DNA of 51,928 bases from Ignavibacteriales bacterium (lineage in GTDB: Bacteria > Bacteroidota > Ignavibacteria > Ignavibacteriales > Melioribacteraceae): NCBI GenBank assembly GCA_016177735.1, contig JACOUS010000005.1:1-51928 (forward strand), given 5' to 3'. The notes under the pieces are model-generated. The model did not search any database and was not told where the DNA came from. It worked only from the letters and a program-made list of their open reading frames with translations. A program made the position numbers and the translations under genes. Every line of letters starts with the position of its first letter. Positions within the stretch are counted from its first letter, which is position 1. This document shows positions 9,849 through 14,398 of this stretch, piece after piece.

Positions 9849-10024
9849 GGACTAAAGTCCATAACTAGAGAGTCTATCATATCCCACTATCTAAAGCTTG
9901 CCCGCCGAAGGTCGGGCTTGCCCGCTGATAAGCGGGATAGTGGCAATTATTTCAGCGTTCTATAGAAATTGCCACGAGCTTTAGCTCGTGGAAGAAACTA
10001 AAGAATAAAAAACGGCTTTAGCCG
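9849..10024. repeat. Long REP-like palindromic repeat (copy B)
   Basis: In order: GGACTAAAGTCC (9849-9860); a stem with outer arms CCACTATC (9884-9891) and GATAGTGG (9936-9943) enclosing GCCCGCC/CGGGC and CCCGCTGATAAGCGGG; CCACGAGCTTTAGCTCGTGG (9972-9991); and CGGCTTTAGCCG (10013-10024). The order and spacing match copy C at 42897-43075. It fills the gap between the CNB gene and prfB and has no coding potential. Confidence 0.85.
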
Positions 10025-10042: not shown

Positions 10043-11144
10043 TTAGTTTTGTGAAAACTTCAGCAAAAATTCTTTAATGAAATTATTGAGATCGCCGTCC
10101 ATCACACCTTGCGTATCCGAAGTTTCCCGTCCGGTGCGGTGATCTTTAACCATGTTGTAGGGATGAAAAACATACGATCGGATTTGACTTCCCCATTCAA
10201 TTTTCATTTTACCTTTTTCAATTTCACTCTGCTCGGCTTGCTGTTTTTCCAATTCAATTTGGTATAGCTTTGCTTTGAGAAGTTTCATTGCATTTGTTTT
10301 GTTCTGAATCTGCGAACGTTCCGATTGACAAGCCGCAACAGTGCCGGTAGGTACGTGTGTAATACGAACGGCAGTTTCAACCTTGTTAACGTTCTGCCCG
10401 CCTTTGCCACCGGAACGATAAGTGTCAATTTTCAAATCAACCGGATTAATTTCAATCTGGATTGAATCATCAACTTCAGGAATAACAAACACGGATGCGA
10501 ACGAGGTGTGTCTTCTTTTATTTGCATCGAACGGTGAGATACGCACGAGCCTGTGCACACCGTTTTCGGCTTTCAAATATCCGTATGCAAACGATCCTTC
10601 AACTTCAATTGTTGCACTTTTTATTCCGGCTCCGTCGCCGTCGAGCCAGTCAATCAAAGACATTTTATAGCCGTTCTGTTCGCCCCAACGCAAATACATT
10701 CTCATCAGCATCTGCGCCCAATCTTGCGCTTCTGTTCCGCCGGCACCGGAGTGAATGGTGAGTATGCAATTTTTATCATCGTCTTTGCCGCTTAACATAC
10801 TTCGCAATTCGAGATCAGCGTAAGATTTTTCTACTTCGCCTAATTCCTTTTCAATTTCCTGAAGAAGCGATTCATCTTGCTCGGCTTCAGCAAGCTCGAT
10901 AAACTCTTTAAGGTGTTTCTGACTATTGTAAACATTACTCCATGCATCGATCCATGTCTGCAAAGATTTGGATTTTTGCAGAAGAGACTGTGCTGTTTTT
11001 TGATCGTTCCAAAAATTCGGCGCTTCGGATTGCAAGCGAACTTCTTCTATCTGTTTTTCTTTATCACCTAATTTAAAGATAACCTCGTAGATTAGTAATC
11101 TTCTCGCCGTATTCATTCAGTTTCCGTAATTGCTCTTCGAACAT
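10043..11144 (-). CDS. prfB: Peptide chain release factor 2, with programmed +1 frameshift
   Basis: RF2 recognises UGA and UAA and triggers peptide release. The stop-recognition motif SPF ([16 protein letters not shown]) and catalytic GGQ ([13 protein letters not shown]) are both present. The start is the ATG at 11144, preceded by AGAGGAG. The zero frame encodes 23 residues ending LRGYL and then stops at UAA (11075-11073). Slipping one base forward at CTT TAA A continues into the 343-residue main frame, giving 366 aa, the normal RF2 length. GAGGT sits three bases before CTT, as in E. coli prfB (LRGYL, CUU UGA). The ATG at 11116 in the main frame lacks a good ribosome binding site and would remove the conserved N-terminus. 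The odd point is UAA in place of UGA. Confidence 0.95.
11073..11088 (-). promoter_or_regulatory. prfB autoregulatory frameshift site (SD-like GAGGT, CTT TAA A)
   Basis: On the minus strand the site reads CGAGGTTATCTTTAAA. An internal Shine-Dalgarno-like GAGGT is followed by TAT, the slippery CTT and the in-frame stop TAA. The tRNA-Leu on CUU would re-pair with UUU and the next codon becomes AAA. Established for E. coli and many bacteria: low RF2 slows termination and favours the shift. Here RF1 could also terminate at UAA, so feedback may depend on both factors. Confidence 0.88.
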
Positions 11145-11197
11145 TTTTTCTCCTCTATGTTTTTAGTATGCAGAAGAAATCTGGATACCGGTTTGTA

Positions 11198-11587: not shown

Positions 11588-11965
11588 TTATAAATTGTTG
11601 ACGATTCTTTTAATCCCGTCTTTTAAACGGGTTACATTAAAATTTATCAGTAAACCTAACTTACATTCTGATAATTTTAGATATGTTAAAACTTGCGCAA
11701 TAAATAAATCATTCAAGGCTTCTACAGATTTAAGCTCAATTACAACTTTATCTTCTACCAGCAAATCTACTCGATAACCGCAATCCAACTTCACTTCCTC
11801 GTAAATTAACGGTAACGGCTTTTGTTTTACTACTTTCAAACCAGTTTTTTGAATTTCATAGAACAAACATTCTTCATAAGAAGATTCCAATAAACCGGGA
11901 CCAAGTGCTTTATGCACTCTTAATGCACATCCAATAACAATTTCGGAAATTTCATTTTCATGCAT
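11588..11965 (-). CDS. GxxExxY family protein (PD-(D/E)XK-like)
   Basis: A 125-residue protein with the signature GLLESSY inside HKALGPGLLESSYEECL. A PD-(D/E)XK-like core follows: CGYRVDLLVEDKVVIELKS, with D and ExK in the nuclease arrangement, then LLINFNVTRLKDGIKRIV. The family is short, very widespread, often multicopy and apparently exchanged laterally; its function is not established. Here it is bounded on both sides by a roughly 32-bp imperfect inverted repeat (11547-11578 and 11984-12015). The whole 469-bp unit sits between the two genes of an AtuA-type pair, on the same strand as both. It looks like a small mobile cassette. Confidence 0.9.
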   Translation of the reverse strand: MHENEISEIVIGCALRVHKALGPGLLESSYEECLFYEIQKTGLKVVKQKPLPLIYEEVKLDCGYRVDLLVEDKVVIELKSVEALNDLFIAQVLTYLKLSECKLGLLINFNVTRLKDGIKRIVNNL

Positions 11966-13462: not shown

Positions 13463-14398
13463 CTACTTTTCAAATCGCCCGAATGTTTCCCGAACAAAAG
13501 ATTCTGCCGACGAAAAATCTTTGTCGTTGGTAACATCGATCCAATTAATTCTTTCGTCTTTTCTAAACCATGTCATCTGGCGTTTTGCAAATCTTCTCGT
13601 GTTCCTCTTTATTAATTCTATTGCCCTCTCAAGAGGATATTCGTTATTCAAAAAAGAAATAATTTCTTTGTAGCCGACCGTGTTGAGCGAATTTAATTCT
13701 TTCGAATAACCTTTCGACAAAATTTTTTCCACTTCATCAACAAGCCCGTCACCGATCATTTTATCAACTCTCTTTTCGATGTTCTTGTAAAGAATCTGCC
13801 GCTCCCAATTCAATCCGAATTGCACAAATGAAATATTAACATTATCCCTTTTATATATTTCCTGAAATTGCCGGATCGGCACGCCGGAAAGATGATAAAC
13901 TTCGAGAGCACGCATAACACGTTTCCAATTTTGAGGAAGCATATTTGCGGCGCTAACCGGATCAACTTTTTTCAATTCTTCGTAAAGATGTTCATTGCCG
14001 AACAACTCTCTATTTTTTTTGAGTTCTTCGCGGAATTCTACATCAACATCAATAGTATTAAATATCCCGTCAACAAGTGCTTTGATGTACAAACCGGAAC
14101 CGCCGCAAAGAATAGGAGTTTTATTTTCCGCAAATAATTTTTCGATGATGTTCAACGCATCTGTTTCGAACTTGCTTACGTTGTAATCTCCTTCCGGTTC
14201 AAAACAATCAACAAAATGATGTTTCACTTTTCTCAATTCTTCCGGCAAAGGTTTTGCGGTACCGATGTCCAAATATTTATAGATCTGCCGGCTATCGGCA
14301 GAAATTATTTCGCCGTTCATTTTTTCCGCGAGTGAAATACTTAATTTGGTTTTACCGGAACAGGTTGGACCAACAATAACAATTACTTTTCTTTCCAT
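13463..14398 (-). CDS. miaA: tRNA dimethylallyltransferase
   Basis: Adds an isopentenyl group to N6 of A37 in tRNAs reading UNN codons. P-loop GPTCSGKT at 10-17, then the substrate motif ISADSRQIYKYLDIGTAKP, the tRNA-contact RVMRALEVY, and the late RNTRRFAKRQMTWFR. At 311 residues it is full length. The start lies inside the end of pcm (16-bp overlap), implying translational coupling. Confidence 0.95.
   Translation of the reverse strand: MERKVIVIVGPTCSGKTKLSISLAEKMNGEIISADSRQIYKYLDIGTAKPLPEELRKVKHHFVDCFEPEGDYNVSKFETDALNIIEKLFAENKTPILCGGSGLYIKALVDGIFNTIDVDVEFREELKKNRELFGNEHLYEELKKVDPVSAANMLPQNWKRVMRALEVYHLSGVPIRQFQEIYKRDNVNISFVQFGLNWERQILYKNIEKRVDKMIGDGLVDEVEKILSKGYSKELNSLNTVGYKEIISFLNNEYPLERAIELIKRNTRRFAKRQMTWFRKDERINWIDVTNDKDFSSAESFVRETFGRFEK

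Follow-up and report, generated by a model that had tools for sequence, protein, structure and literature searches.

The prfB gene for release factor 2 (RF2) is controlled by a +1 frameshift that is a textbook autoregulatory loop, the specificity of which is thought to rest on an in-frame UGA codon; RF1 reads UAA and UAG, and RF2 reads UAA and UGA. In the UGA C form of Escherichia coli (AGGGGG UAU CUU UGA C), a short leader of the RF2 gene contains an internal Shine-Dalgarno sequence, a spacer, the slippery CUU_U and an RF2-readable stop, beyond which translation continues in the +1 frame. Other stop codons have reportedly been studied at the E. coli prfB site, for example by Poole in 1995. 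In a survey of 8,164 genomes with the motif (Prince, Lin and Feaga 2025, PMC12421855), the UAA form accounted for 1.4%. That work described UAA as poorly tolerated and not broadly fixed in particular clades, and the C after the stop as almost universally conserved; its TGA share is given as 98.6% in the results and > 99% in the discussion. UAG variants of the site are mentioned in PMC5009743. The open-licence literature yielded no paper on a UAA variant of prfB in Ignavibacteria, nor on control of prfB by RF1 through UAA.

We analyzed a stretch of 51,928 nucleotides (the window) from an Ignavibacteriales genome of 3.87 Mb in 44 contigs. Its minus strand carries an RF2 gene with the elements shared by the E. 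coli form, namely a short leader with an in-frame, RF2-readable stop, an internal Shine-Dalgarno sequence, a spacer, CUU_U and a +1 continuation (Table 1). The preliminary description of the locus had reported a 23-codon leader starting at ATG 11144 with a ribosome binding site, a UAA at the frameshift site and the remainder of RF2 in the +1 frame, all of which we read in the sequence. The GAGGAG motif is separated from the leader ATG by 5 nt. The 3′ end of the leader reads CGA GGT TAT CTT TAA A, with the slippery CTT at 11078-11076 preceded by TAT, and skipping of T11075 gives AAA TTA GGT GAT..., in a frame that runs uninterrupted until its stop at 10043. The gene was assigned to RF2 by its SPF and GGQ motifs and by the score of the joined product of 366 aa against the NCBIfam prfB model TIGR00020 (530 bits; cut-off, 370). 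The site departs from the canonical UGA C form in its stop, UAA (11075-11073), which RF1 can read as well, and in its next base, A (11072). It shares with the rare form of PMC12421855 the replacement of CUU UGA by CUU UAA. We found one copy of the motif RGNTATCTTTRA in the window, where shuffled sequences had 0.13 on average; this is weak alone, and the weight of the match comes from its position in RF2 and from the relatives, not from its rarity.

Table 1. Features of the prfB frameshift locus in the window
Feature	Position	Strand	Basis
Leader ribosome binding site GAGGAG	11150..11155	-	sequence; the genome's own 16S tail GGATCACCTCCTTTC
Zero-frame leader ORF, 23 codons + stop UAA	11073..11144	-	ORF reading; length kept across the order
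GAGGU, internal Shine-Dalgarno-like stimulator	11082..11086	-	sequence; predicted 16S pairing
Slippery CUU_U, formed by the P-site Leu codon and the stop's first base	11075..11078	-	sequence; relatives
In-frame stop UAA, in the usual place of UGA	11073..11075	-	sequence; relatives
Base 3′ of the stop, A (usually C); first +1 codon AAA (Lys)	11072	-	
RF2 portion in the +1 frame (343 aa + stop), with SPF and GGQ	10043..11074	-	

The earlier claim that RF1 can also read the prfB stop is right, recognition of UAA being part of the established specificity of this factor (PMC12421855, PMC5373646). An RF1 gene is present in the genome, and its product has a PAT motif. A 150-aa GGQ protein is encoded as well. 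The 16S tail of the genome, GGATCACCTCCTTTC, contains CCTCC, which matches the internal GAGGU. A tRNA-Leu(GAG) that decodes CUU is present (L319), as are two Lys tRNAs with the anticodons CTT and TTT; a UAA-reading anticodon is absent from all 45 tRNA matches of the genome. The best match to RF3 (prfC) was far below the cut-off and is probably EF-G.

The preliminary description had proposed counting UAA against UGA at prfB in related genomes. We examined 91 genomes of the order, which we take to be Ignavibacteriales, with its family f1 presumably Melioribacteraceae, as part of a class sample of 391 genomes. These were searched with fixed-spacing patterns for CTTTAA and CTTTGA, the UAA matches being checked by frame; six genomes of the order without a true pattern match were settled by protein search and reading. 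The order has 45 UAA sites, 44 UGA sites and 2 genes without a frameshift, and the UAA variant thus represents about half of the sampled species. By family, UAA was found in 33 of 47 genomes of f1, 11 of 40 of f2 and 1 of 4 of f3, and UGA in 12, 29 and 3, respectively. CTT T is kept in all 89 frameshifted genes, and a Met codon lies 23 codons 5′ of the stop in 88 of them, the exception being a UGA gene (G355) with Val. UAG was found at prfB in none of the 91 genomes, 89 of which have UAA or UGA and two a single frame. A pattern search for UAG in 96 genomes, including 88 of the 91, gave two matches, neither at prfB; both were discounted, as the prfB site in those genomes is already UAA or UGA.

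UGA is the rule elsewhere, as had been stated: among the 300 genomes of the class outside the order, 226 have a UGA site by pattern match alone, one has a true UAA site and 73 match neither pattern. In a set of 80 named relatives that overlaps with the sample, 73 sites were callable (17 UAA and 56 UGA), and seven genomes, some with a cut locus, had no called site. The UAA pattern matches in 9 of 53 genomes, and 15 outside the class, were dropped after frame translation as not being prfB; those of G176 and G218 were also dropped because prfB sits elsewhere. Outside the class, a search for UAA in 297 genomes of the phylum identified 11 true sites, all from a single genus of Bacteroidota, g202 (family f37, L267-L278), in which 18 of 21 genomes have a site (11 UAA C and 7 UGA C); one of the 11 UAA sites was translated and the others are near-identical by eye. 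This genus resembles the order in having UAA at 11 of 18 prfB sites and differs from it in that the C after UAA, with Asn in the +1 frame, is kept in all 11.

We built a tree of 96 rows from the part of RF2 encoded 3′ of the site. This is a gene tree with an unsettled bootstrap and some weak placements, in which the quick version placed the window in a clade of 20 rows and 7 genera, all with UAA and a purine (SH-aLRT, 97), and the careful version in a starred set of 19 rows, all UAA (bootstrap/SH-aLRT, 99/93). In the quick tree, 25 f2 genomes formed an all-UGA clade (support, 98). The starred branches force at least 7 changes between UAA and UGA, and the best tree has 14, 12 of them within the order. 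A single UAA clade was rejected (AU p 0.00045). The presence of UAA in 45 of the order's 91 sampled genomes and throughout a clade of 19 to 20 species contradicts the statement in PMC12421855 that the form is not fixed in clades; the form found here also differs from the one in that survey by the purine that follows. The site in the window is a clade-level form of a known switch, ordinary in mechanism and unusual in form.

The stop codon and the following base change together. In the order, UAA is followed by G in 23 cases, A in 20 and C in 2 (purine in 43/45), whereas UGA is followed by C in 38, T in 4 and A in 2 (Fisher 2e-20, with kinship ignored). In independent pairs, of which there were 6 on starred branches, a mean of 4.8 went the same way and 0.0 the opposite way, with a median p of 0.0625, which falls short of 0.05. 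Among the named relatives, a purine follows UAA in 16 cases and C in one, and C follows UGA in 48 of 56. Three UAA C sites with Asn in the +1 frame, L191 (G058), L165 (G203) and L202 (G131), look intermediate between the UGA C and the UAA purine form. In contrast to the Asp of the E. coli type, found in 42 of 44 UGA genes of the order, the first +1 residue is Lys in 43 of 45 UAA genes. Both residues show a codon bias relative to codon usage in the fetched loci, in comparisons that count related genomes as independent: GAC encodes 38 of the 42 Asp residues (9.5 expected), and AAG encodes 23 of the 43 Lys residues (9.3 expected, or 9.5 with matching for the next base). At Lys codons a short way downstream in these genes, AAG accounts for 29 of 166. 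Of the 711 terminal UAA stops in the fetched loci, only 10% have G as the next base, arguing that the frequency of G at the prfB UAA does not reflect a general preference for stop context. The excess of GAC and AAG indicates that the prfB site is still under selection, at UAA toward a base other than the C of weak termination. This change of the base after the stop, coupled to UAA, is apparently new.

Because the leader, the CUU_U and the internal Shine-Dalgarno sequence are intact, we read the site as a working switch, and on balance we favor the view that it is a prfB +1 autoregulatory frameshift in which UAA and a purine have taken the place of the weak, RF2-only UGA C. By analogy with E. 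coli, the ribosome would translate the 23-codon leader until CUU occupied the P site and UAA the A site, and the internal GAGGU would then pair with the 16S tail. Binding of a release factor at UAA would release the short peptide; if none bound, tRNA-Leu(GAG) would slip from CUU to UUU, Lys-tRNA would enter at AAA, and RF2 would be made. Since both factors read UAA, frameshifting would track the combined activity of RF1 and RF2. Self-repression by RF2 would persist, with a feedback gain scaled by the share of RF2 in UAA termination, and RF1 would contribute a floor of repression. Such competition by RF1, anticipated in the preliminary description, is plausible and follows from the known stop specificities. 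The absence of UAG from prfB argues that readability of the site by RF2 matters, and it suggests that RF2 feedback has been kept, perhaps diluted by RF1. Tentatively, we also raise the possibility that the order has undergone several shifts, in either direction, between a sensor of RF2 alone (UGA C) and one of RF1 and RF2 together (UAA purine), with simultaneous re-tuning of the next base. If so, UAA species would set RF2 synthesis by their total UAA-terminating capacity, and the level of RF1 would feed into prfB. With a UAA clade established next to UGA relatives, nature offers a comparison that bears on three questions: whether RF2 specificity is essential to the loop, whether the synthesis of RF2 can be controlled by RF1, and how stop and next base are jointly tuned.

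The share of each factor in reading UAA is central to an alternative, in which the UAA loop works exactly as the UGA loop because RF2 carries out nearly all UAA termination, making the change of stop silent. The RF2 of the window has Ser at the position that we tentatively equate with E. coli residue 246. Ser or Ala occupies this position in 89 of 89 genes of the order, independently of the stop type; the absence of the weak Thr form, as well as that of UAG from the site in 91 genomes, is in keeping with a silent change. PMC12421855 also argues that in most taxa UAA is read mainly by RF2, in which case the share of RF1 would be small. However, RF1 is present in the genome, and in E. coli UAA is decoded by both factors when RF2 has Ala246, and mostly by RF1 when RF2 is of the K-12 form (PMC5373646). 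By analogy with the Ala246 data, Ser or Ala at this residue would fit shared reading of UAA. Furthermore, a silent change would not require the shift to a purine, which could, however, stem from a preference for Lys. Altogether, we consider a silent change rather unlikely.

If UAA and a purine have instead replaced UGA C in a loop that still operates, frameshifting should be lowered, because a C after the stop weakens termination (PMC5289835, PMC5009743) and UAA terminates well (PMC5289835). In Pseudomonas fluorescens, fitness suffers when frameshifting is lowered by mutation (PMC13245932). We found no compensation in Shine-Dalgarno pairing, stop usage or RF3. The mean pairing energies in the order were -7.16 kcal/mol for UAA and -7.18 kcal/mol for UGA sites (p 0.91), as calculated with an assumed 13-base 16S tail, with which the genome's own tail agrees over GATCACCTCCTT. 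The fraction of TGA stops among the ORFs of the fetched loci had medians of 0.18 and 0.19 in 39 UAA and 40 UGA genomes, respectively, each with at least 8 ORFs (p 0.52), and GC content differed by stop type within f2 only (p 0.005). RF3 is patchy in the order, being above the cut-off in 38 of 91 genomes. It was found in 13 of 45 UAA and 23 of 44 UGA genomes (Fisher 0.03, with kinship ignored), in the opposite direction within f1 (10/33 UAA versus 2/12 UGA), and with a median p of 0.5 in independent pairs. Stop usage, Shine-Dalgarno strength and loss of RF3 were thus set aside as explanations of UAA, as none showed a consistent difference.

A further alternative is that frameshifting is efficient enough, or the demand for RF2 low enough, for regulation to be relaxed and for the stop to drift between UGA and UAA. 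Such drift could produce the many switches on the tree and the rejection of a single UAA clade, and the loop can be removed without a detectable fitness cost in P. fluorescens (PMC13245932) and without an obvious one in Flavobacterium johnsoniae (PMC8710568). In one f1 genus, the frameshift has been lost altogether, with RF2 in a single frame in G277 (L248) and G218 (L249) (ALKVTLKIDEKE, GLKTNLKIEEKE); the Lys at the former site is typical of UAA sites and hints at loss from a UAA ancestor. Relaxation is nevertheless improbable, given the invariant CTT T, the absence of UAG, the bias to C at UGA and the excess of G at UAA, and given the cost of lowered frameshifting in P. fluorescens.

The two possibilities that could have overturned the preliminary description, an assembly error and production of RF2 from the internal +1-frame ATG at 11116 with the leader as a decoy, are very improbable and largely refuted. 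A sequencing error is excluded by 44 other genomes of the order that share the arrangement. As for an internal start, the open +1 frame contains a start codon 5′ of the site in only 5 of 45 UAA and 5 of 44 UGA genes (as ATG in two UAA genes, those of the window and its genus-mate), and the leader shows zero-frame conservation, with variation peaking at third positions.

Regarding the surroundings of prfB, an imperfect 23-nt inverted repeat with the core CCACGAGC-TAAA-GCTCGTGG lies just 3′ of the gene, at 9958-10005, and is possibly a terminator or a mobile repeat. The upstream neighbors of prfB are the genes for a GxxExxY protein and miaA, at positions 11588-11965 and 13463-14398 of the window.
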